This document shows positions 13,895 through 42,150 of a stretch of DNA of 43,073 bases, piece after piece (the stretch's first letter is position 1; each line of letters starts with the position of its first letter). This DNA comes from a virus, in IMG/VR virus record IMGVR_UViG_3300025781_000480, positions 1 through 43,073 of that record, one strand, 5' to 3'. The notes under the pieces are model-generated. The model did not search any database. It was given only the letters and a program-made list of their open reading frames with translations, and was not told the origin of the DNA. The translations under genes were made by a program, and so were the position numbers.

Positions 13895-16800
13895 TTAATT
13901 TGCTACTGAGCTAACAAGATACCAAGTGTTTGACCCAATACCAGCAAATTGTGCAGAAGTATGAGAACCTAATGTATAATCTACACTACCATTAACAGTT
14001 CCAGTTCCGCCAGGTGTTGCTACATATATGCTATTCGCAGTAACATTCATTACTGTTATAAGTGGACCGAATGGAGCTACTGAAGAACTAGTTGAAGGAG
14101 GTAATAAAATAACACCATTGTTTACTGCACTATTTACTAAACACATTTCTGTGGTTATTTGTGTTCCACCTGAAATTGTAAGACTTGATACTGTATATGC
14201 TGAAAGTGATCTATTTGTGAAACCATTAACAAGTACATTTCCATAGACTTGTGCATAAGTAGAATTTACCGATAGTGTTCCATTGCCACCAGAATAAATA
14301 TACACCGCATCATTTACTAGTGGAATACTTATGTTACTTGTACCATTCGCAATTCCGCTTGATGTGACACCTGTTAATTGACTACCATTACCAATAAAGT
14401 ACCCTGCAGTAATATTACCACTAGTACCTAAGTTACCAACATTGGCATTACCAGTGATGTTAGCGGTACCTGCAATGTTTGCACCAGTACCAGTGACTAC
14501 TAAGGTTGTGTTACCAACAGCTACTAAATTAACATTACCATTAACTGATGGAATACTTACATTACTTGTTCCGTTAGCAACTGTTGCAGTAACACCTGTT
14601 AATTGACTACCATTACCAATAAAGTATCCTGCAGTAATATTACCACTAGTACCTAAGTTACCAACATTGGCATTACCACTGATATTTACAGTACCAGTAA
14701 CACTTAATGTATGAGCAGGATTTATATTAGCAACACCTACATTACCATTGCTGTTGATATATATCCTAGCTGTGTTTGTAGTTCCTAATGTCATGTTGTT
14801 AGTATTGTCTACTACAATATAACCTGTTTGTGAAGAACTTGCATAATTAGTCCACTGAATGTATGCTCCGGATGTGTCACTAGAGTTCTGACGCAATACT
14901 ATTGCCCCGGTACTTCCACTAGCCGTAGCTAAGAATCTAGCATTACCTAATACATCCACTTTAGCACTAGTATTTGCAGTACCAACGCCTACATTACCAC
15001 CGGATGGGTTTAGTGCTAATACTGCTGCTGCCCCAGCACTTTGACTTTGTATAGCAGAAGTGTATCCAAATGTTGGGTCATTAATATATGCTAAACGCAT
15101 TTGATAGTTAGCGTTTGCTGTCTGCTCTCCAATTGTAAATTGCGGTGATGTTACTACTGTAGGTGTTGTTTTAGGTACAACATTTAAATAACCATTTACT
15201 ACTGCGCTAGTGCCGGTCACTACTACTATGTTTGCATTACCCGCACTGCTTATATTAACATTGCCGTTAACTGCAGGGATACTGACATTACTTGTACCAT
15301 TTGCAAATGTTCCGCCTATAGTACCTGATAAATTTCCTACAAATGTAGTGGCAATCAATGCACCATTGGATAAGTTAGCTGATATAGTTGCTTGAGTAGC
15401 AAGCGCATAATTACCTGTAGTAGATCCATTAATAAATGTAGGATAATATGTACCTGTAGATTGTGTAGTTACATTTGAGTAATCTGAGACATTAGCATGA
15501 CCTACTGTCAAGTTAGCAACTGGAGTTGTACTTGTAACAATAAACGGGGCAGTACCAGTTGCTATATTACTTATAATTTGCGGTGCAGTAATATTAGATG
15601 TAGCTAAAACTCGTGCTGTACCTAAATTACCCACATTAGCATTACCAGTTACACTTAATAATGTAGTAGATAAGCTACCAGTATCTACACTGTATGACAA
15701 ACTGGAATTACTTGCTGGTTGGAAATTAGCACTTGAAATATCATTAACAAATATTGGATAAAATGTTCCAGATGAGGCTGCTGCTACATTTACATAATCT
15801 GATACATTCGCATAATCAACATTTAAGTTGGAAACACGAGCAGAACTTGAAACTGTAAATGGGGGAGCAGTACCTGTTCCGATAGTAGATACAATTTGTC
15901 CTGCTGTATTTAGATTACCAACATTAGCATTACCTGTGACAGATAACGCAGTCGTTACTCCTAAGTTACCAACATTAGCATTACCTGTGATGTTTGCAAC
16001 ACCTGTAACTTTTACACCACTACCAGTTACTGTAAATATATTTGCATTACCTGCACTACTTATATTGACATTACCATTAATTGCAGGGATATTAATGTTA
16101 CTAGTACCATTTGCTATGGTACCGCCAGTTAAATTTCCTTGAAATGTAGTAGCTGAAATAACATTAATACCAGAAATATTACCACCGCCTGTAATGTTTA
16201 AGTTATTAGCACTTATATTACCAGAAGCAGTTATATTAGAAGAAACATTAACATAATTTGCAGTTATCAAATTACCAAGGTTAGCATTAGCTGTTATTAA
16301 GTTACCTGTAATATTTGCAGTACCTGTAATGTTAGCGCCTGTTGATGTAACTTTAAAAGTAGTAGTACCAGCAGATGCGATACTAACATTACCGCTTGGT
16401 GATATAGTGACATTGCTAGTACCATTTTGAATTAAACCACTGTTGACAGTAGTAATATTACCAGTTGTAACAGTAGCTGTAGTTGTACTTAAATTACCTG
16501 TAGTTGCATTACCCGTAACATTCAAATTGCCTGCAACATTTGATGCAGTTGCAGTAACTGAGAATTGTGCAGTTGTGTTGCCACCGATAAAGGTAGAAAC
16601 ATTACCACCCGCAGCAATAGTGACATTGCTAGTACCATTTTGAATTAAACCACTGTTGACAGTAGTAATATTACCAGTTGTAATGGTAGCTGTAGTTGTA
16701 CTTAAATTACCTGTAGTTGCATTGCCTGTTGCATTTAAAGTGCCTGCAATGTTAGCACCAGTGCCAGTTACAACAACTACATTGGCATTTCCTGCACTAC

Positions 16801-18538
16801 TTATATTGACATTACTACTAAAAACAGGAATACTTATGTTACTTGTTCCATTTGCAAATGTACCTGTTATATTACCAAACACATTACCTACCAATGTAGT
16901 AGCAAGCATTGTTCCGTTCGCTAAGTTGGCTGATATTAATGAGTTAGAAGCAAGAGTATAATTACCTGTAGTAGATCCATTTACAAATGCAGGATAATAT
17001 ATACCTGTTGTTTGTTGATTAACTAAACCATAATCGCTTACATTTGCATGTGCCACATTTAAGTTAGGTACTAATGTGTTACTTGATACGGTGAATGGAG
17101 CAGTACCAGTAGCAATAGTAGATATAATCTGTCCAGCAGTACCCAAGTTACCTACATTAGCATTACCACTTACTGTTAAACTAGTTAATGTGCCAACACT
17201 TGTAATATTTGGTTGAGCATTAGTATATACTGTACCTGTAACTAAACTGTTACCTACTTGACCACTTACATTTGCGCCAGCTACACTATTTGCAACTGCG
17301 GCATAATTAACTTGACCACTTACATTAGCACCTGCTACTGCATTCGCAGTTGTTGCATATGTTGCAAGACTAGCAGTAGCTACACTCAAGTTAGGAACAG
17401 TTGTATTAGAGTACACAACAAATGGTGCAGTACCAGTAGCAATAGTAGATATAATCTGTCCAGCAGTACCCAAGTTACCTACATTAGCATTGCCAATAAT
17501 ATTCGCGGATCCTGTAATGTTTGCAGTACCAGCTACATTTACACCTGTGCCAGTAACTACTAAACTAGTATTTCCTGCTGATACTACATTGACATTACCA
17601 TTAACCGCAGGGATACTTACATTACTTGTTCCATTAGCTATGCTACCTGAAGTAGCAACATTCATATTTGCTATTCGTGTAGTGCTATTAACAACTAATG
17701 GTGCAGTACCAGTAGCAATAGTAGAAATTAATTGTCCGGTCACATTCGCATTAGAGGCATACACTGAATCAGTGAACACCCCAGTAACAGCACCTAAGTT
17801 ACCTACATTGGCATTTCCAGTAGCATTTAATGTACCTGATACATTCAACCCAGTGCTAGTAGCAACTACTACATTTGCATTACCACCTACACTTAAATTG
17901 ATATTACCATTAGTTGTTGGTATGGTTACATTACTTGTTCCATTTGCAATATAAGTTGCAGTACCCCAATACAAATTACCTGAGCCATTTGTTTGCAAAG
18001 CTTGACCAGCAGAGCCACCTGGAATATGAAAACTATTAATATCACTAATATAAGTATTTGATCCTTCAAGTATTGCAGCACCAGAAACGGTCAATGAAGT
18101 TAATGTACCTACACTAGTTATGTTAGGCTGTGCATTAGAACTGCTAGTTAATGTTCCGTTGAATAATGCCATACCATTTGTAGAGTTGGCAAAATAGTCA
18201 GATAAAACTTGTGCAGGATTAATATCTATGTTTAATTTTTGTGCAGAGCTAGTAATTGTTACAAAACTTTGAGTGTTATCTGTTCCCCTGCCTACTTTTA
18301 ATGAAGAAGTAGCTACTTGTAAGCAAGCGATGTTTGCGGATAATACAACATCACCAGTTGGTTGATTAACTGTTATACCTGCACCAGGGGTACGATTAAC
18401 TGAGGTTACAATGCCGGATGCAGTACTAGTATTGAATAATTGATCAAAGTTATTCTGTACTTTTTGAAATGCTGTCCGTATCGCATCGGCTGAAGGATCA
18501 TCGGGGAATGTTCCAAAGTCTATATTTTGCTGGCTCAT
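13895..18538 (-). CDS. Giant repeat tail fibre protein, 1547 aa
   Basis: It opens with an attachment-like module (DPSADAIRTAFQKVQNNFDQ) followed by about 1300 residues of degenerate repeats. The recurring unit is of the type ANGTSNVSIPAVNGNVNISS, GNANIVVVTGTGANIAGTAN, ITGNANVGNLGT. A different C-terminal domain (about 1440-1547: SLTISGGTQITTE...NTWYLVSSVAN) is probably the receptor-facing tip. There are three near-perfect internal DNA duplications (separate entries) and a 58-base identity with the partial fibre gene at the right edge. A GATAAATA box lies 23 bases before the ATG, with a possible AGGTAA ribosome site. Long or side tail fibre is the best guess. Confidence 0.85.
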   Translation of the reverse strand: MSQQNIDFGTFPDDPSADAIRTAFQKVQNNFDQLFNTSTASGIVTSVNRTPGAGITVNQPTGDVVLSANIACLQVATSSLKVGRGTDNTQSFVTITSSAQKLNIDINPAQVLSDYFANSTNGMALFNGTLTSSSNAQPNITSVGTLTSLTVSGAAILEGSNTYISDINSFHIPGGSAGQALQTNGSGNLYWGTATYIANGTSNVTIPTTNGNINLSVGGNANVVVATSTGLNVSGTLNATGNANVGNLGAVTGVFTDSVYASNANVTGQLISTIATGTAPLVVNSTTRIANMNVATSGSIANGTSNVSIPAVNGNVNVVSAGNTSLVVTGTGVNVAGTANITGSANIIGNANVGNLGTAGQIISTIATGTAPFVVYSNTTVPNLSVATASLATYATTANAVAGANVSGQVNYAAVANSVAGANVSGQVGNSLVTGTVYTNAQPNITSVGTLTSLTVSGNANVGNLGTAGQIISTIATGTAPFTVSSNTLVPNLNVAHANVSDYGLVNQQTTGIYYPAFVNGSTTGNYTLASNSLISANLANGTMLATTLVGNVFGNITGTFANGTSNISIPVFSSNVNISSAGNANVVVVTGTGANIAGTLNATGNATTGNLSTTTATITTGNITTVNSGLIQNGTSNVTIAAGGNVSTFIGGNTTAQFSVTATASNVAGNLNVTGNATTGNLSTTTATVTTGNITTVNSGLIQNGTSNVTISPSGNVSIASAGTTTFKVTSTGANITGTANITGNLITANANLGNLITANYVNVSSNITASGNISANNLNITGGGNISGINVISATTFQGNLTGGTIANGTSNINIPAINGNVNISSAGNANIFTVTGSGVKVTGVANITGNANVGNLGVTTALSVTGNANVGNLNTAGQIVSTIGTGTAPPFTVSSSARVSNLNVDYANVSDYVNVAAASSGTFYPIFVNDISSANFQPASNSSLSYSVDTGSLSTTLLSVTGNANVGNLGTARVLATSNITAPQIISNIATGTAPFIVTSTTPVANLTVGHANVSDYSNVTTQSTGTYYPTFINGSTTGNYALATQATISANLSNGALIATTFVGNLSGTIGGTFANGTSNVSIPAVNGNVNISSAGNANIVVVTGTSAVVNGYLNVVPKTTPTVVTSPQFTIGEQTANANYQMRLAYINDPTFGYTSAIQSQSAGAAAVLALNPSGGNVGVGTANTSAKVDVLGNARFLATASGSTGAIVLRQNSSDTSGAYIQWTNYASSSQTGYIVVDNTNNMTLGTTNTARIYINSNGNVGVANINPAHTLSVTGTVNISGNANVGNLGTSGNITAGYFIGNGSQLTGVTATVANGTSNVSIPSVNGNVNLVAVGNTTLVVTGTGANIAGTANITGNANVGNLGTSGNITAGYFIGNGSQLTGVTSSGIANGTSNISIPLVNDAVYIYSGGNGTLSVNSTYAQVYGNVLVNGFTNRSLSAYTVSSLTISGGTQITTEMCLVNSAVNNGVILLPPSTSSSVAPFGPLITVMNVTANSIYVATPGGTGTVNGSVDYTLGSHTSAQFAGIGSNTWYLVSSVAN
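14367..14678. repeat. 87-base direct repeat pair inside fibre gene
   Basis: 14367-14453 and 14592-14678 agree at 86 of 87 bases (C at 14402 versus T at 14627). The offset is 225 bases, exactly 75 codons, so a deletion or duplication between copies keeps frame. Confidence 0.9.
16404..16723. repeat. 107-base direct repeat pair inside fibre gene
   Basis: 16404-16510 and 16617-16723 agree except for two adjacent bases. The offset is 213 bases (71 codons), in frame. Confidence 0.9.
17100..17491. repeat. 65-base direct repeat pair inside fibre gene
   Basis: 17100-17164 and 17427-17491 are identical. The offset is 327 bases (109 codons), in frame. Confidence 0.9.
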
Positions 18539-21129: not shown

Positions 21130-21753
21130 TTATTTACTTGCGCCAGTTTGTGGCTTTGGTGGCATCTTGATAGTAGACATTGGACTCTTGTCTCCAAGCT
21201 TCTTATCATCCAAATATGGCTTGAACGGATCAAACGCATCTTGTGTTCTTGTTCCTGCATAAGGGATATCAATCTTAGAATCTTTAACTTGATCTTTGAT
21301 TGACTGTAGGTATGAGTCTGCATAAGCCTTACTTGCTTCTTTAGCATCAGGTTGTTCACCCATTTGTTCTTTATTAAGCAATGGGGTATCTTTCATTTCA
21401 TTCTGATATCCCATCATCTCACTATCAATGCTATCATCAAACTTTGTACCAATTACACGAACCATGTTTACATTATATCCTAACAACTGAGCAATTTGTT
21501 GAATCATTGGCTCTGTTGCTGGGTATCTAAATTCAGCTTTGATAATTGTCACACTCTCGTTTTCTAAATTAGGAAAACCGTATGGTGATTTTTGAATAGG
21601 AGTACTGGTTGGATTGCTGATGTTCACTGGGTCAAACTTGTTTAGATTGTACTTAAACATATCTAAAAAGTTTTTGTCAATGGTGCCGGCAATTTTGATC
21701 GTGTAATTATAAGTCTTTACACTTTCCATAATATGTTGTTTAAGGCTTCGCAT
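21130..21753 (-). CDS. Conserved virion-cluster protein, 207 aa
   Basis: Function unknown. The N-terminal domain (about 1-110) is alpha/beta: ESVKTYNYTIKIAGTIDKNF, then PIQKSPYGFPNLENESV, then AEFRYPATEPMIQQIAQLLG. This pattern seems familiar from T4-like marine phages, where it is annotated as structural or hypothetical. The C-terminal 90 residues are polar and Pro/Lys-rich, probably extended. It has a late box 19 bases before the ATG and an AGGAAT ribosome site, and is followed after 17 bases by the acidic 824-residue gene. Confidence 0.75.
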   Translation of the reverse strand: MRSLKQHIMESVKTYNYTIKIAGTIDKNFLDMFKYNLNKFDPVNISNPTSTPIQKSPYGFPNLENESVTIIKAEFRYPATEPMIQQIAQLLGYNVNMVRVIGTKFDDSIDSEMMGYQNEMKDTPLLNKEQMGEQPDAKEASKAYADSYLQSIKDQVKDSKIDIPYAGTRTQDAFDPFKPYLDDKKLGDKSPMSTIKMPPKPQTGASK

Positions 21754-25136: not shown

Positions 25137-25775
25137 TTATGCTTGACCAGCGCCAATACCTGTCGCAGATGCGCCACTCAATACACGACCGATTGATGAA
25201 CCAACACCAGAACCGATTGGGCTTTGAATTGCATTATCAAATACGATTGTCATAGCGATTGTTACAGCTTCGCTAGTTCCATAGTTAAGAGTATTATAGT
25301 TAGCTGTTTGCAAGAAACAACCATATAATTCCCAAGTTTCTAGTACTACTGGTGCTGATGTACCATTACCACCGTCTAAGATTTCAATGTTTGTTTGAAA
25401 CTTGTAATCTTGACCTGTAGCAGCACTAGCTTGTTCAACAAAGTCTAATTGCTTCTGTAATTGCTGTCCAACTAACTTTGAAACTGATCCTGATGCATCA
25501 TCACGAACATTACAAGTCATATTAGCCCATGTATGCTTACCTGCTAACTTAATAGTAGAGTTGTAAACTTGCAAAGGAATTTCAGCAAAACTTAGATTAG
25601 GCCTGCTACAATCTATAACTTGCTTAGTAAGCTCAATTGCACTTGCACTTGTTCCAAAGTTTAAAAAGTTAACTCTGAATCTAAATTGTAGTTTAGGCAT
25701 TAGTAGACCCTGATTGCCACCGGCATTATCAGAGGCTACTGTCATGTTAAACAATGATTGTGAGGCTGTTGCCAT
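25137..25775 (-). CDS. 19: Tail tube protein (T4 gp19-like)
   Basis: 212 residues, somewhat longer than T4 gp19 (163). MPKLQFRFRVNFLNFG, then VIDCSRPNLSFAEIPLQVYN, STIKLAGKHTWANMTCNVRD and LETWELYGCFLQTANYNTLN form the tube beta-sandwich pattern. The C-terminal 30 residues are Gly/Ala/Ser-rich. The protein polymerises into the inner tube inside the sheath. It follows the sheath gene by 37 bases with its own late box 22 bases before the ATG and a strong AGGAGA ribosome site, as expected for a highly made structural protein. Confidence 0.92.
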   Translation of the reverse strand: MATASQSLFNMTVASDNAGGNQGLLMPKLQFRFRVNFLNFGTSASAIELTKQVIDCSRPNLSFAEIPLQVYNSTIKLAGKHTWANMTCNVRDDASGSVSKLVGQQLQKQLDFVEQASAATGQDYKFQTNIEILDGGNGTSAPVVLETWELYGCFLQTANYNTLNYGTSEAVTIAMTIVFDNAIQSPIGSGVGSSIGRVLSGASATGIGAGQA

Positions 25776-29573: not shown

Positions 29574-29927
29574 ATGCTCATACATAGACCATTCTGTAAA
29601 ACATGCAATAGGAATTATGCCGCAGTAAATTATATCCGCAATGAAAAAACATACTACCGTAGTATATGTGACGAGTGCGGAAAAAAGAAAAATAAATTAA
29701 AACCACTCAAGCCCAGTTGGACTAAAAGTGGTTATAAGAAAAAATCCACATGCGATTTATGTGGATTTAAAAGTCTATTCAGTACACAAATAACTGTGTT
29801 TCATATTGATGGTAACTTAGAGAATAGCGCCCCATTAAATTTACGCAGTATATGCTTAAACTGTGTTGAAGTAGTAAAAAAGAAAGATGTTAATTGGCGT
29901 CGGGGTGATTTGCAGATTGACTATTAA
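29574..29927 (+). CDS. Zinc-ribbon/HNH-like protein, 117 aa
   Basis: Four Cys pairs are visible: CKTC (8-11), CDEC (33-36), CDLC (60-63) and CLNC (94-97). FHIDGNLENSAPLNLRSICL matches the HNH pattern HxDGNxxNxxxxNLxxxC. The final HNH histidine after the last CxxC is missing (CLNCVEVV), so nuclease activity is doubtful. Similar proteins are familiar from T4-like phages, sometimes annotated as HNH endonucleases. It is an isolated plus-strand gene between minus-strand gp18 and gp1, and its last 38 bases overlap the gp1 gene tail-to-tail. Confidence 0.8.
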   Translation: MLIHRPFCKTCNRNYAAVNYIRNEKTYYRSICDECGKKKNKLKPLKPSWTKSGYKKKSTCDLCGFKSLFSTQITVFHIDGNLENSAPLNLRSICLNCVEVVKKKDVNWRRGDLQIDY

Positions 29928-30986: not shown

Positions 30987-31784
30987 TTAACCTTGGATCC
31001 AAGTTAGTGGTTGACTGTAATCTACATAACGCTTGAGTTCGTCAATTAAGAATTCCATTCCAGCTTTGCCTTCAGCTTTCATAGCAGTACCATTCAATGT
31101 AGTGCCACCACCTGGACCTGCAATAGTACCGAACTTTTCACGGGCTTCACCGATAATAACTTTAAGGTTTGCTAGGATAAAGTCACCTATCCATACACCT
31201 GCACCAGGATCTTGTAGTAAAACTTCTTCTGGCTTTTGCACATCAGCCCATATTAAAACTCGTTCACCTGAACCTTTAGGGTCACGAACAATTCTAAGTA
31301 CCTTGGTTACTGGGTTAAATGTGTAAGTTACATAACCACCGAACATACGAGCAGCCAATTCAACATAGCCTGCATAGAAGTCGTATGTTGCCATACCGCC
31401 AGCATAATTATAGTTAAGTAAGTAAGTATTTAAAATAGCACTACTGAACGGGTCAAAACTAGTACTTGATGGACCAGTCTCTAAACCAATTGTGCGTCTA
31501 TATAAACAACGGACATTGATAAATTCCTGTGGTAGGGTATAAGTATCAACATTTTTCTCAACGGTCATTAATGTATATGATTCCTCAGTGGCAGCTTGGG
31601 CTTTCTGACGATATACCTTAATCGCATAATTATATGCTGCCTCATAATGTTGAGGGTCTAATTCTAAATCAATGATACCTTGGCCTAAACGATAGGATAT
31701 ATTGTTGAATAATGCCTCTTTTAACTCATCTAGGGTTAAACCGGTTGGTGTTGAAAGTACATTAGCTGTTGGGTATGTTGACAT
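30987..31784 (-). CDS. 13: Neck protein (T4 gp13-like)
   Basis: 265 residues (T4 gp13 has 309). The N-terminal helical region TLDELKEALFNNISYRLGQG leads into YNYAIKVYRQKA. The middle has MTVEKNVDTYTLPQEFINVR and the C-terminal half has VWIGDFILANLKVIIGEARE followed by KFGTIAGPGGGTTLNG. That last pattern (GPGGG...LNG) is the family hallmark. gp13 joins the portal to the tail in the neck. Its partner gp14 is on the opposite strand 2.4 kb away, unlike the adjacent 13-14 order of T4. A late box lies 19 bases before the ATG. Confidence 0.85.
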   Translation of the reverse strand: MSTYPTANVLSTPTGLTLDELKEALFNNISYRLGQGIIDLELDPQHYEAAYNYAIKVYRQKAQAATEESYTLMTVEKNVDTYTLPQEFINVRCLYRRTIGLETGPSSTSFDPFSSAILNTYLLNYNYAGGMATYDFYAGYVELAARMFGGYVTYTFNPVTKVLRIVRDPKGSGERVLIWADVQKPEEVLLQDPGAGVWIGDFILANLKVIIGEAREKFGTIAGPGGGTTLNGTAMKAEGKAGMEFLIDELKRYVDYSQPLTWIQG

Positions 31785-31803
31785 ATGTGTTACCTAATAA
31801 TAC

Positions 31804-31811
31804 TATTTATC
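31804..31811 (-). promoter_or_regulatory. Late-promoter-like box GATAAATA, 19 nt before ATG
   Basis: Minus-strand GATAAATA 19 bases before the gp13 ATG with TTAGGTAA between them as a possible ribosome site. It gives gp13 its own late start and leaves the hairpin-rich region upstream of it. Confidence 0.6.
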
Positions 31812-31978
31812 TGGTATATGTGTTTAGATATTCTTAGGCAATGGCGAGTAGATATGATCTACTCAAACCAAAAAACATTCTTGAGGCGTTCAGGCGATGA
31901 TGAATTAAAAGATTAAGGTGGAGGATTGTCTATGTCTCACCGACCCCGTGAAGGGACTTTTCCGTATTCGCTGTTATA

Positions 31979-32195
31979 GTGTAGGTATATTCATCAGGAT
32001 TCTACACACAGCCCAAAAGTATCTATCGCAATTACTATCTTTTGGCATACATTCAACTATTAAGATATGGGAAACGTTGCTACACAGAGGGTAGACGTTT
32101 AAGCATCAAATGGTAGTCCCATAAATTTGCGTTGGTCACGCTTCTACCGTCACACCACGATGAGGACGGAGTTTCGCCACAGTTTGAGGTCGTGG
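31979..32195. ncRNA. Candidate structured RNA in the 427-base non-coding gap
   Basis: The gap 31785-32211 has no convincing protein gene on either strand. Five hairpins sit almost end to end. Stem 1: 31979-31984 with 32002-32007 (GTGTAG/CTACAC). Stem 2: 32013-32019 with 32039-32045 (CCAAAAG/CTTTTGG). Stem 3: 32072-32077 with 32095-32100, nested 32080-32083 with 32091-32094, a nearly perfect 10-bp helix. Stem 4: 32112-32116 with 32144-32148, nesting 32129-32132 with 32138-32141. Stem 5: 32155-32160 with 32190-32195 (CCACGA/TCGTGG). A further 8-bp hairpin is at 31846-31864. Flanking genes are minus strand, so a minus transcript is more likely, but the strand is open. It matches no RNA family I can name. 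Confidence 0.55.
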
Positions 32196-32211
32196 ATTAC
32201 CTGTAGACCAA

Positions 32212-32433
32212 TTAATCAGTCAACACATCAAAGACTGTGCCGTATTCATATCTAGCCCAATCTTCCATGTCAACATATGTGTTGATTTTGCGTCGGTATA
32301 TTGTCTTTAGCCACACTCTTTTATTGTGTATTTTGACAGGATACCACGCAAACCATTTCTGCCAAGAAGAATATGTTATCTTCCTAGCAATGAAATTGTT
32401 CCATATCTCATCAGAGACAGGACTGAGACTCAA
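32212..32433 (-). CDS. Hypothetical protein, 73 aa
   Basis: Not recognised. The start is a TTG at 32431-32433 whose TTGA overlaps the MazG stop; AAGGTG just upstream is the ribosome site, so it is coupled to MazG. Rich in Trp, Tyr, Lys and Arg (SSWQKWFAWYPVKIHNKRVW, then WARYEYGTVFDVLTD), possibly nucleic-acid binding. It ends right before the hairpin-rich gap. Confidence 0.65.
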   Translation of the reverse strand: MSLSPVSDEIWNNFIARKITYSSWQKWFAWYPVKIHNKRVWLKTIYRRKINTYVDMEDWARYEYGTVFDVLTD

Positions 32434-32858
32434 AGATCACCTTCTTTTCTGTTCTCACTGTAGAATGCGTCAAAGTGTCCGCCCGGATATCGTGCTTCAA
32501 GTTTACCTACATTTTCAGCAATAACATCATTAGGGTCATATCCAAGTGCCCTACAAGCATTGGTCCAATACCAAATGATATCACCTAGTTCACGCTTCAG
32601 GTGAAAGCGATTTTCTTCATTGAATGGCTTACCTTGAAAGACCATCTTTTTGACAATCTCACTGAATTCGCCACCTTCACTTGCTAGACCAATGCTTGCA
32701 GTTAGTAACAGTGGAATGTTCAACTGTATACCATCTATTGCCGCTTTCTTTTCAAGTTCTTGCAGGCATTCAATGAATGCATCAAGTCCGTTAGATTGTT
32801 TGCTTGTAACCGCGGCTACAAAGTCTTTGTATTTGTTTAAATCAATTTGTTGTGTCAT
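32430..32858 (-). CDS. mazG: MazG-like nucleotide pyrophosphohydrolase
   Basis: 142 residues, a single MazG-type helical domain. The metal-binding ExxE is E61-x-x-E64 (ASEGGEFSEIVKK) and ExxD is E90-x-x-D93 (RELGDIIWYW). MazG proteins hydrolyse (d)NTPs to NMP and pyrophosphate. In marine phages they are proposed to change nucleotide or alarmone pools, though substrate is uncertain. The ATG overlaps the end of the 394-residue gene by one base, and the 73-residue gene overlaps its stop. Confidence 0.88.
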   Translation of the reverse strand: MTQQIDLNKYKDFVAAVTSKQSNGLDAFIECLQELEKKAAIDGIQLNIPLLLTASIGLASEGGEFSEIVKKMVFQGKPFNEENRFHLKRELGDIIWYWTNACRALGYDPNDVIAENVGKLEARYPGGHFDAFYSENRKEGDL

Positions 32859-34150: not shown

Positions 34151-35860
34151 ATGCCACGACTTAGCCTTTGGCGCCCCAATAAAACGAACGATTACAACTT
34201 TTTTGATAAGATAATATCAGAGCAGTTTACTGCCGGGGCCACTGATTTGTATGTGCATAAGTATCTAGGGCCCACTGATCAAGGTCCATCAATTGATTAT
34301 ACTCAACCTCAGTATGATGCGCTAGCTCCTACAAATATACAAGATTTGCTATTCTTGGAAAACAGAGATAGGACATATGATCCTAGCGTTTATAGATTGC
34401 GTGGACATTACAATGTACAAAACTTGGACTTTGATTTGAGTCAGTTTGGCTTGTTCTTAAACAATGACATTATTTTTATCACTGTTCATTACAACGATAT
34501 GATTGATATTGTAGGTCGTAAATTAATGGTTGGTGATGTAATTGAATTACCGCATTTGCTTGACTATAATCCACTTAAAGAAACTATACCAGTTGCATTA
34601 AAAAGATTCATGCAGGTTACTGATGCTAATTATGCTAGTGAAGGTTTTAGTCAAACTTGGTTCCCCCATTTATGGCGTATAAAATGCGAACCAATGGTTG
34701 ATAGTGAAGAATTTAGTCAGATACTAAATGCTCCACTGAATGAGGATACCTATCTTGGTATATGGGATGCTACTAAAACATACCCAACAGGATACACTAT
34801 CACATATGGTGATAAAAATTATCTAGCAATACAGGATGTTCCTGCTGGGACAAATCCACCTGATCCAAATTATTGGCAACTAGATACAAGCTCTAACTTG
34901 AAAGATATCTTGGCAACTTATAACACTAATATTGCAATTAATGATGCTGCTTTAAGAGAAGCCGAAAGATTGCTTCCTAAATCAGGATATGATACTTCTA
35001 ATTTGTATGTAGTTCCTACATACGGTGAATACGAAACAAACACTCAACTATCATATAAGTATAATCAACCTGCACCACCTGTCAACGGTGTTATAGATTC
35101 TGCTGGTGCACCAGGCACAACTACTGGTACTGTTATGATGATGCGTAGTCCAAACTACAAAAATCCTAGTCCAGTTATAAAGATTTCAAAAGCAGCTATC
35201 AAGAGCATTTGGGATATGACTGCTGACATGGGATATGATAAATTAGATGCATTGAATACCGTTAATATAGAAAAAATCACAGTAGCACCAGAACGAACAA
35301 GTACTAACTCAGGCGCAGTCAGTGGTGAAAAAATGTTATCCTTATTCTCAATGGGCACAGTTACTGGACCATACGGTACTGCTGACAACACTTATGCTAC
35401 CGCTGATGCTAACCCAGAACTTCCTGGATTCACAGGTACAGTTAGTACACAAATGGATTGGCGTGCTGATTGTGATCCACGATTCCAATATATTGCTCGT
35501 AGTAGCCCACGAACATTCGGATATCTCACTGGTTATTTAACAGGTGATGGTCAGGCACCAAATGGTTATCCAACAGGTGCAGGTATTGCTTTCCCACAAA
35601 ATCCGCAAGTTGGTGATTATTTCTTACGAATAGATTATTTCCCACAACTATTATTTCGCTGGAATGGCAAGGTGTGGATAAGAATATCAACTAATGTCAG
35701 AACACCAACTGGATTTGATTCTACTGATCAATCACAACTATCCGGATTTATCAACAATACAGAACAAACACAGCTTACAGATGGTTCATATATACCACAA
35801 AGACAAGCACTGTCTACTATTTTGACATTAGCACCTGATTCTATTCCACCTCAAGTTTAA
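34151..35860 (+). CDS. 14: Neck protein (T4 gp14-like) with sugar-binding-like insert
   Basis: 569 residues, about twice T4 gp14 (256). The N-terminal 190 residues are the neck domain: LYVHKYLGP, IQDLLFLENRDRTYDPSVYR, LRGHYNVQNLDFDLSQFGLF, VGDVIELPHLLDYNP, WFPHLWRIKC. An insert (about 203-250) reads YLGIWDATKTYPTGYTITYG and then NYLAIQDVPAGTNPPDPNYW. This resembles the CBM5/12 chitin-binding module (W..xxxYxxGDxVxYxGxxYxA....P....W). Later parts are Gly/Thr/Pro-rich, ending with FPQLLFRWNGKVWIRIS. gp14 closes the head-tail neck with gp13. gp15 follows by 9 bases. Confidence 0.87.
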   Translation: MPRLSLWRPNKTNDYNFFDKIISEQFTAGATDLYVHKYLGPTDQGPSIDYTQPQYDALAPTNIQDLLFLENRDRTYDPSVYRLRGHYNVQNLDFDLSQFGLFLNNDIIFITVHYNDMIDIVGRKLMVGDVIELPHLLDYNPLKETIPVALKRFMQVTDANYASEGFSQTWFPHLWRIKCEPMVDSEEFSQILNAPLNEDTYLGIWDATKTYPTGYTITYGDKNYLAIQDVPAGTNPPDPNYWQLDTSSNLKDILATYNTNIAINDAALREAERLLPKSGYDTSNLYVVPTYGEYETNTQLSYKYNQPAPPVNGVIDSAGAPGTTTGTVMMMRSPNYKNPSPVIKISKAAIKSIWDMTADMGYDKLDALNTVNIEKITVAPERTSTNSGAVSGEKMLSLFSMGTVTGPYGTADNTYATADANPELPGFTGTVSTQMDWRADCDPRFQYIARSSPRTFGYLTGYLTGDGQAPNGYPTGAGIAFPQNPQVGDYFLRIDYFPQLLFRWNGKVWIRISTNVRTPTGFDSTDQSQLSGFINNTEQTQLTDGSYIPQRQALSTILTLAPDSIPPQV

Positions 35861-38018: not shown

Positions 38019-39314
38019 TTATGCACTAGCGATTGTAACCAATGGGTAAGGTTGAGCGTTAGCTACATTAGCATCTGCTTCACTATTGAATGTTGCAAAT
38101 ACAGGTGCTGCGTTAATGTAACCTAAATTACCAGTTGGTTGACCAGGAGATACGATATTACCGGTAGCTACTGGACCAGAACTAGAAGTAAACAACCAAC
38201 CAGTGTGATCACTCAAGCTTTGTACTGCTTGTGTAGTAGTATTAGCATATGTAGCGATAACTGTCATTGTATTTGGTGTCAATGCAGTGTTTGCAACATT
38301 GGCCATATAGCACTGACCAGTTAAACCAGTAACTGTACCTGTTACTAGGTACTTTTGTTTACCCTTTTGACGAACAATGTATCCTGCTTCTGGTAGTGCT
38401 TGTGCAAAACCATCACCATAACCATTGACACCAGTTGCGTTATTTGCTGATACTGCACTCAATACAACTTGTTGTTGAAGTGCGTTAGCTGTTACGCTAC
38501 TATTTGCACTCAATGTTTGTACCGCGCCACCTGGAGCAGTTGCAACATTGAAGGCTGCTGCATTAGCAATAGCGTGTACAAAGTAAGTTGTACCTGCAGT
38601 TAAACCACCAAATGATGTGTCAAATGTAACTGGTCCACCAGTTACAAGAGTTTGAGCATTGCCTGAAGTACCAATAATACCGTTAGCAGCACAGTTTGCA
38701 ATTGCAACTGATGTGTTACCACCTGCACCGCTAGTTGTACCTAACAATTGTGCTACTTGTACATTACCGCCCCATTGAGCATATAAGTGAGAACCTGTTG
38801 CAACATTAGCAAAGTCAGTACCTAAACCAACAACAATGTTACTACTTGTACTTGCGAACACATTGCCTACACCTTGTTGACCGATAGCAATATTAGCCAA
38901 TACTTGCTTACCGATGATTGCTGTGTTACCACCGACTACAGAGTATGTGTTAGCATTAGTAGCAGGGAAACCAGCTCCGCCGAATGGATTGTTAAAGTAT
39001 GCATCAACTACTGCAACAGATGCTTTAACTGATTGAGCTGAAGTATTAGTTAATGTAGGTCTAGTTTGAGGTTGAACACTTAATTGTGTTGAAGAAACAG
39101 TAAATGTATGATTACCTGTGATAGCAAGAATATAATATGTTGTATTAGCAACCAAACCACCTACAGTAGATGCTACTACGAATGGCATTCCTGCGAGTAC
39201 ACCAACTGTTGGTGCTGTTGTTAAATTATCTGTTACGGTAACTACACCAGTAGTTGCTGTTCCAGTGATTGTTAAGACTGCTTGAGCCTTTGCGATTTTT
39301 AGAGGGCGTCCCAT
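38019..39314 (-). CDS. Virion structural protein, 431 aa
   Basis: It begins MGRPLKIAKAQAVLTITGTA, an opening I associate with a conserved structural protein in marine T4-like phages. Rich in Ala/Thr/Val/Asn/Gly. Two related segments (GMPFVVASTVGGLVANTTYY, then GPVTFDTSFGGLTAGTTYFV) look like repeated beta domains. A basic element YIVRQKGKQKYLVTGTVTGL at about 310-330 breaks the pattern. It may be a head or tail decoration protein; location is not known. The 5' leader contains two small hairpins and a late box 84 bases before the ATG. Confidence 0.8.
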   Translation of the reverse strand: MGRPLKIAKAQAVLTITGTATTGVVTVTDNLTTAPTVGVLAGMPFVVASTVGGLVANTTYYILAITGNHTFTVSSTQLSVQPQTRPTLTNTSAQSVKASVAVVDAYFNNPFGGAGFPATNANTYSVVGGNTAIIGKQVLANIAIGQQGVGNVFASTSSNIVVGLGTDFANVATGSHLYAQWGGNVQVAQLLGTTSGAGGNTSVAIANCAANGIIGTSGNAQTLVTGGPVTFDTSFGGLTAGTTYFVHAIANAAAFNVATAPGGAVQTLSANSSVTANALQQQVVLSAVSANNATGVNGYGDGFAQALPEAGYIVRQKGKQKYLVTGTVTGLTGQCYMANVANTALTPNTMTVIATYANTTTQAVQSLSDHTGWLFTSSSGPVATGNIVSPGQPTGNLGYINAAPVFATFNSEADANVANAQPYPLVTIASA

Positions 39315-39335
39315 TTGATTTTCCTTTGTAAAATT

Positions 39336-39369
39336 AGCGGGTTCTAGCCGCTACGCAGTGGGGTACTGC
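39336..39369 (-). other. Two tandem hairpins in the leader of the 431-aa gene
   Basis: AGCGG/CCGCT (39336-39340 with 39348-39352) and GCAGT/ACTGC (39355-39359 with 39365-39369), in the predicted transcript leader between the late box and the ribosome site AAAGGA. They may stabilise the mRNA or act in translation control. Confidence 0.4.
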
Positions 39370-39398
39370 ATAAACCTGCCGAATGCAAGTGTATGATA

Positions 39399-41769: not shown

Positions 41770-42150
41770 TTAACCTCCAGTTTGTGCTGGGAATCCAGAC
41801 AATTCTGTAATACTAACTAAACCAGCAATTGTTACTTGTAATACAGAGACACATGCTAAGTACTGCACACCAGGGGCAGGAGTTGAATTTGGTGGTGAAG
41901 CTGGTGCCGGTGGAGGACTAGGAACAGTAATAAACTCAGTTGCACCTCCTAAAATTATCATACTAGAAGTAGTAGCTGGTGCCAATGTATTGCTATTTGT
42001 TATTTGAACATATGTATCATGTTGGCAAGTAATTCTTATAATTGAAGTTGTTGCTCCAACAGGGCTACTTGTTTGTGAACTACCTGTTGTTAATATATTT
42101 TGCGTCACACCTGGGTAAAATGCACCTTTATTTACAGTTAATGCTGCCAT
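41770..42150 (-). CDS. Structural-cluster protein, 126 aa
   Basis: Function unknown. A single beta-rich domain (TTSIIRITCQHDTYVQITNS, then SSMIILGGATEFITVPSPPP) with a Pro/Ala-rich loop, ending VSVLQVTIAGLVSITELSG. It looks like a small decoration or fibre-accessory protein; that is inference from context. A late box lies 21 bases before the ATG with AAGGAA as ribosome site. Confidence 0.72.
   Translation of the reverse strand: MAALTVNKGAFYPGVTQNILTTGSSQTSSPVGATTSIIRITCQHDTYVQITNSNTLAPATTSSMIILGGATEFITVPSPPPAPASPPNSTPAPGVQYLACVSVLQVTIAGLVSITELSGFPAQTGG

Follow-up and report, generated by a model that had tools for sequence, protein, structure and literature searches.

What occupies the 427 bases upstream of gp13 in a viral genome known from environmental DNA? 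The window that we analyzed is a 43,073-nucleotide stretch (IMG/VR record IMGVR_UViG_3300025781_000480, positions 1 to 43,073), and the gap extends from 31785 to 32211. A preliminary description had found no credible protein gene in this gap and had proposed an undescribed structured RNA. The longest open reading frames (ORFs) of the gap encode 43, 58, and 42 amino acids, which bears out the first claim. The gap is flanked by a 73-aa ORF and by gp13, all on the minus strand (Table 1). The placement beside gp13 was correct, but the gene directly upstream is the 73-aa ORF, not mazG itself. This ORF has a conserved C-terminal motif (WYPV..WLKT.YRR.INTYVDMEDW..YEYGT.FD), occurs on 24 contigs with and without the RNA, and is a frequent but not constant neighbor of the RNA. 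ARAGORN detected neither tRNA nor tmRNA in the window. Intrinsic terminators (GC-rich hairpin followed by a T run) are absent from the minus strand between 31700 and 32900, in agreement with the earlier statement that the stems of the gap are not simple terminators. The single-sequence folding energy was not unusual by comparison with dinucleotide shuffles, with z-scores of -0.88 (plus) and -0.09 (minus). Since the gap is ordinary on both strands by this measure, the case for an RNA rests on its relatives.

A search with gp13 returned 80 contigs, and the gap sequence was present at 82-100% identity in three. Between the window and locus L075 whole stems are swapped for different, still complementary ones (for example CCAAAAG/CUUUUGG for CCGGGUC/GGCCCGG). 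A 17-base core (GACATAGACAATCCTCC) matched 80 viral contigs, of which 73 proved to be true family members by profile. Further members were gained with three other sequence patterns, and some of these show GATATAGTCAATCC or GACATAGGCAATCC in place of the 17-mer, which in members first found through it is shared by construction. The family comprised 122 loci on about 105 contigs including the window (repeated loci of one contig removed by hand), hence about 104 contigs of IMG/VR besides the window. With a covariance model built on 153 positions (P9-P13), the window is detected at an E-value of 3e-37 and the most distant or truncated members at 2e-16 or better, and RNA-less relatives and bacterial contigs gave nothing below 0.014. 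In 20 whole records without the RNA beside gp13 or the 73-aa ORF, we found no second RNA site except for one match at E 0.015; these records may be fragments, and the absence therefore counts within records and is not proof for the whole phage. Each carrier record contains one copy, with the exception of a single 277-kb record that contains two. These two copies (L233 and L234), from a jumbo phage, have diverged from each other. Among bacterial GTDB contigs the 17-mer core matched 31 times, roughly as often as chance predicts, and none of these sites was a family member by profile or covariance model. Named phage records gave only short chance matches to the five members tried, so that no cultured carrier is known here. 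The RNA is missing on contigs of close relatives with the same gp13. Distances between RNAs correlate with those between gp13 genes (Mantel r 0.37, a value reached in 0 of 2000 permutations), so that descent has been partly vertical.

Helices were identified from mutual information among 46 sequences combined with a helix scan. In a MAFFT alignment of 42 sequences, standard pairs make up 95.8% of 3,299 cells. Of the 79 base pairs, 50 show changes on both sides, and the cells in which both partners differ number 396. When the partners were slid by 1-3 columns as a control, these values dropped to 36-42%, 12-16 pairs, and 42-63 cells. Because the structure was derived from the 42-sequence set, the real test is provided by ten distant members that were found later and held out. 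In these sequences 86.7% of cells are paired as opposed to 37-42% after sliding, and 222 cells changed on both sides as opposed to 19-46. The preliminary description had named two outcomes that would speak against an RNA, namely stems that are not kept by compensatory changes and a conserved protein frame across the gap. The stems are kept, and across 49 family members no conserved frame exists; in these members the median length of the longest open stretch is 43 aa for the RNA strand and 59 aa for the opposite one. G-U cells outnumber A-C cells by 115 to 56 over all helices, and by 74 to 1 in the nine best-aligned helices (P2, P4, P6-P9, PK2, P12, P13). This excess of G-U over A-C identifies minus as the RNA strand, which is also the direction of mazG and gp13. 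The gap thus encodes a member of a new family of large, pseudoknotted phage RNAs, with lengths of 379-492 nt in the 49 members.

The 5' end of the RNA is near 32211 (UUGGUC) and its conserved 3' end near 31825 (CCUAAGAAUAUCU). The preliminary description had taken the gap as a whole; the RNA fills most of it, and the last ~40 bases (31785-31824) are the gp13 late promoter and leader, outside the RNA family. The fold contains three long-range or loop pseudoknots (PK1-PK3) and one H-type pseudoknot. Five of the six pairs of PK1 changed on both sides, PK2 is 99.5% paired with UA replaced by AU in 16 of 41, and 73 of 79 PK3 cells are still paired in the held-out members despite different sequences, although covariation reads alike for pairing within one molecule and between two copies, PK1-PK3 included. 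For example, the PK3 loop UGAUGAA is changed to CAAUGUUUC or CAUAACU, and the distant partner changes along. Among the local helices P6, P7, and P9 are paired in 100% of cells. Changes on both sides are present in P6 and P7, and affect six of seven pairs in P9 and all seven in P11. The last two bases of P14 compete with PK2. The stems first noted between 31979 and 32195 are real and correspond to P11 (31979-32007), P9, P6 with P7 and P8 nested inside, P4, and P3, and the 8-bp hairpin noted beside them is P14.

Table 1. Window coordinates of the structured RNA, its helices, and the features around it
Feature	Position	Strand	Basis
gp13 neck / head-tail adaptor protein, downstream gene	30987-31784	-	phrog_211, E 9.5e-23
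Leader hairpin of gp13, weakened: Shine-Dalgarno 3' arm intact, 5' arm degraded relative to RNA-less relatives	31791-31817	-	
Late-promoter-like GATAAATA between RNA and gp13, 26 nt from ATG	31804-31811	-	sequence
Structured RNA, ~387 nt (~390)	31825-32211	-	nhmmer and CM family, covariation
PK1, UUGGUC with loop GACCAA of the P5 hairpin (32129-32141)	32206-32211 x 32132-32137	-	
H-type pseudoknot, P2 (32199-32202 x 32187-32190) interleaved with P3 (32192-32195 x 32177-32180)	32177-32202	-	covariation
P4 hairpin, CCGUC/GACGG	32147-32169	-	covariation
P6 (UAUGGG/CCCAUA) around P7 and P8	32066-32123	-	covariation
P9 stem, CCAAAAG/CUUUUGG in window, CCGGGUC/GGCCCGG elsewhere; loop GCGA	32013-32045	-	covariation
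PK2, P9 loop 32026-32030 with 31842-31847 near 3' end	31842-32030	-	covariation
P10 (GCUG/CAGC) and P11 (variable 7-bp stem)	31970-32012	-	covariation
PK3, P11 loop 31989-31996 (UGAUGAAU) with 31898-31905 (AUUCAUCA)	31898-31996	-	covariation
P12	31958-31961 x 31907-31910	-	covariation
P13a	31953-31955 x 31944-31946	-	covariation
P13, near-invariant cap loop GACAUAGACAAUCCUC	31938-31941 x 31917-31920	-	covariation
P14 3' hairpin, GAGUAGAU/AUCUACUC	31846-31864	-	sequence; conserved in family
73-aa ORF, TTG start, directly upstream of RNA	32212-32433	-	24 relatives; phrog_14828 weak
mazG-like pyrophosphohydrolase	32430-32858	-	PF03819 above cut-off, phrog_229
Starts with GATAAATA/AATAAATA upstream	13895-18538, 21130-21753, 25137-25775, 34151-35860, 41770-42150		

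A fold of this size and complexity that is backed by covariation has so far been seen in ribozymes, riboswitches, and RNAs of the GOLLD/ROOL kind. The preliminary description could not match the gap to tmRNA, RNase P RNA, the group I intron core, hammerhead, or a riboswitch, and it had recommended an Infernal search against Rfam. With Rfam 15 the gap matched no family at the gathering threshold and only snoRNA and sRNA models at chance level with E up to 10; 14 other members gave no match at E up to 1. This result, together with ARAGORN in the case of tmRNA, confirms the earlier comparison and covers known ribozymes in general, and in combination with the covariation it upholds the proposal of an undescribed structured RNA. 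A literature search, with subscription papers and most preprints outside its coverage, found no description of this RNA.

Phages and prophages encode GOLLD and ROOL, non-coding RNAs of unknown function whose large, ornate, pseudoknotted folds are known from covariation (PMC12286853). The new RNA is likewise large, ornate, pseudoknotted, and supported by covariation, but with 379-492 nt it falls short of the more than about 600-800 nt typical of GOLLD and ROOL and reaches about half their size or less. Rfam models of GOLLD and ROOL match neither the window (gathering threshold) nor 14 other sources (E up to 1), and the new RNA adjoins mazG/gp13 or precedes terminase instead of neighboring tRNAs. 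GOLLD and ROOL are also marked by homo-oligomers of RNA chains, and the covariation of PK1-PK3 in the new RNA would suit pairs within one chain as well as between chains. The resemblance is one of type only, with no relative in the searched library. The lytic phage ICP1 produces an abundant non-coding RNA of ~800 nt from an ORF-less gap beside its late (lysis) gene cluster (PMC7567579). That transcript is also an unexplained large RNA from an ORF-less gap next to late genes; it differs in size, and no named phage record matched the members of the new family that were tried. The pRNA of phage phi29 is 174 nt long, has a simpler fold, and is encoded near packaging genes. The new RNA also lies near packaging genes in some phages, but it is missing in close relatives.

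Several short motifs were considered and rejected. A GACUA/UAGUC complementarity that recalls P7 of group I introns involves an invariant GACUA, and the remaining layout does not fit. In a candidate 11-nt tetraloop receptor (UAUGG/CCUAAG), UAUGG is part of the covariation-supported P6. The complement of the conserved loop reads like a ribosome-binding site (GGAGG-N7-ATG) and could have marked a small gene or an antisense target, but the loop varies (GATATAGTC, GACATAGGC), the ATG is not kept, no frame follows it, and no contig contains a second 17-mer match on either strand. The window encodes a second structured RNA of the same phage: freshwater-2 RNA (RF02980, 67 bits) at 39312-39390, minus strand, just ahead of the ORF at 38019-39314. 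This RNA is an unrelated cis element of 84 nt.

Carriers of the RNA are about a hundred environmental phage contigs from at least two phage groups. At all 39 loci that include gp13, gene and RNA share one strand, and the 3' end of the RNA is 28-192 nt upstream of gp13. This arrangement is that of T4-like phages; in a second group (L130, L124, L237, L238, L239, L249, and in part L244 and L163), the RNA is upstream of TerS/TerL, ahead of TerS, TerL, and portal-region genes. More distant arrangements exist as well. Other genes lie between the RNA and a downstream gp13 in the L118 record and in jumbo copy 2, and likewise in L241 and L236, where the distance is 0.5-2.5 kb. Jumbo copy 1 is located among small ORFs without an adjoining structural gene. 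The RNA is preceded by mazG, alone or with small ORFs, and in several members an intrinsic terminator lies immediately ahead of the RNA. Both RNA ends are flanked by AU-rich stretches, and in relatives the slot of the RNA is also occupied by other accessory genes. An HNH-endonuclease-like ORF (window 29574-29927, plus strand) lies opposite in strand to the late cluster and at the same place in most relatives.

After placing the RNA upstream of late genes, we turned to the gp13 leader. In the window, GATAAATA or AATAAATA occurs 26-30 nt upstream of several late-gene start codons, and these elements are likely late promoters. Their core ATAAATA is present in the gp13 leaders of 48 of 50 loci with the RNA and 57 of 57 without. 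In RNA-less relatives, the gp13 late promoter sits inside a strong hairpin that pairs with the gp13 Shine-Dalgarno sequence. Such hairpins were called by folding energy with a cut at -10 kcal/mol (a perfect-repeat test was dropped as too strict), and they are found at 65 of 66 RNA-less gp13 loci versus 1 of 57 RNA-bearing loci. The mean leader energy is -16.7 kcal/mol in RNA-less relatives versus -5.1 kcal/mol in carriers (shuffled: -4.0 and -3.3). The arms of RNA-less leaders, such as L003 3770-3818 and L012 3950-4000, show compensatory changes (GTTACCT/AGGTAAC, GTTTCCT/AGGAAAC). Hence, presence of the RNA is tied to the design of the gp13 leader. The window itself looks like a recent case of this exchange, as judged from the intact 3' arm and the damaged 5' arm. 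On the gp13 tree, RNA presence changes four times, and the hairpin is inverse in all three supported independent pairs; with three to four independent switches, a sign test gives p 0.25 at best. A single recombination event at the promoter could change both traits together. In four RNA-less relatives (L003, L049, L058, L066) a protein gene occupies the slot of the RNA and the hairpin is kept, which argues against a purely mechanical effect.

Gene e of T4 is preceded by a promoter-bearing hairpin that hides the Shine-Dalgarno sequence and represses the gene 100-fold. Hairpins of this kind silence gene e on early read-through transcripts, and a late promoter located beside the ribosome-binding site allows them to be bypassed (PMC3014915). 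The RNA-less relatives have the arrangement of the T4 gene e, soc, and 49 leaders at gp13, a neck gene. At RNA-bearing loci this type of hairpin is missing with one exception in 57, the window retaining a weakened version, and the RNA apparently takes the place of the hairpin. Unlike the hairpin, the RNA is 390 nt long, pseudoknotted, and leaves the gp13 start uncovered. Of the three roles raised in the preliminary description (stand-alone RNA, 3' UTR, or gp13 leader), a plain gp13 leader is unlikely because the late promoter GATAAATA is located between RNA and gp13, although transcripts that read through from upstream would contain both.

Our best guess, with a probability of about 0.45, is that the RNA is a cis-acting gate at the boundary of early and late genes; a trans-acting RNA is nearly as likely. 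Polymerase that leaves the early/middle mazG operon and continues into the late region would produce the RNA, and such read-through RNA from upstream would include both the RNA and the gp13 leader. The RNA would fold during its synthesis and act in cis, keeping the read-through RNA from gp13 production through an arrest of transcription or through cleavage that separates the structured RNA from the gp13 message. In RNA-less relatives the same job would be done by the hairpin that buries the gp13 Shine-Dalgarno sequence, with the late promoter inside the hairpin providing a bypass. Late transcripts would begin at GATAAATA downstream of the RNA, not contain it, and be freely translated. The fold and strand of the RNA, its position, and the RNA-or-hairpin exclusivity at gp13 loci are observations, and the simplest account of the last two is that the RNA blocks gp13 synthesis from early read-through as the hairpin does elsewhere. 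Because RNA-less phages hide the gp13 ribosome-binding site in a hairpin, the RNA probably helps to keep early RNA from late-protein synthesis. This inverse link provides a directly testable idea of its role.

Several observations count against the gate. The independent switches are few and joint recombination may explain them, the distance to gp13 is 0.5-2.5 kb in a few phages, and jumbo copy 1 has no structural neighbor. A fold of 390 nt that combines several pseudoknots with near-invariant loops exceeds the needs of an insulator; its size and conservation suggest that the RNA works through specific binding or through catalysis, or that it has an additional role in trans. The intrinsic terminator before the RNA in some members can be read both ways, as an addition to the gate or as a device that already stops read-through ahead of the RNA. 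A broader proposal, which we regard as rather unlikely, would make the family a new class of large phage RNAs that act as gates of the early-to-late switch. Located before late virion genes in two or more phage groups, these multiply pseudoknotted RNAs would be exchangeable with a Shine-Dalgarno-hiding hairpin, and they might sense a host or infection-stage signal or assemble an RNA complex through their covarying loops.

The strongest competitor of the cis-acting gate is a stable, stand-alone RNA of ~390 nt that would bind a host or phage protein, the ribosome, or its own copies, with the boundary merely a landing site for accessory genes. The large ornate fold with its several pseudoknots fits this possibility, and so do the accessory distribution of the RNA, a slot shared with other accessory genes, and the presence of one copy per record, or two in the 277-kb phage, where one copy lies apart from structural genes. 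GOLLD, ROOL (PMC12286853), and the ICP1 RNA (PMC7567579) are precedents. If the RNA does act in trans or form a complex, it would represent a new class among the few large phage RNAs. However, its strict same-strand position upstream of late virion genes in two phage groups and the inverse link with the gp13 hairpin speak against such a function, and a promoter of its own is not evident.

An improbable alternative is a ribozyme or processing element that would part the mazG and gp13 messages, either by self-cleavage or through cleavage at its ends by other factors. This would agree with the compact multi-pseudoknot fold, the conserved single-stranded cores (P9 and P13 loops), and the AU-rich flanks, but no Rfam ribozyme family matches. 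A packaging or head-completion RNA akin to phi29 pRNA would agree with the neighboring genes, which are gp13 in one group and TerS, TerL, and portal genes in the other; it is very unlikely given that contigs of close relatives with the same gp13 lack the RNA, which is thus probably dispensable for that machine. Hardly to be expected is an element acting as DNA, such as a single-stranded fold or a recombination or replication signal; the location at a boundary of cassette exchange would suit it, but the strand-specific wobble pattern and the multiple interlocking pseudoknots kept over large distances would not. Chance hairpins in a decayed gene, for which the ordinary folding energy might speak, are refuted by covariation in the sample and the held-out members and by the missing conserved frame.

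Two observations concern the sequence downstream of the RNA. In L250 and L251 the RNA is followed by a short frame that resembles the start of gp13 (MATGLTLKGVI*), and two SGNH-hydrolase-like genes separate this frame from gp13, as if a cassette had been inserted into the gp13 start next to the RNA. Downstream of the RNA, members of the terminase group (L163, L124, L130, L239, L244) share a block of hairpins, for example CACGAATAAAAACG...CGTGTCGTGAGCCAGCGAACGACAC.
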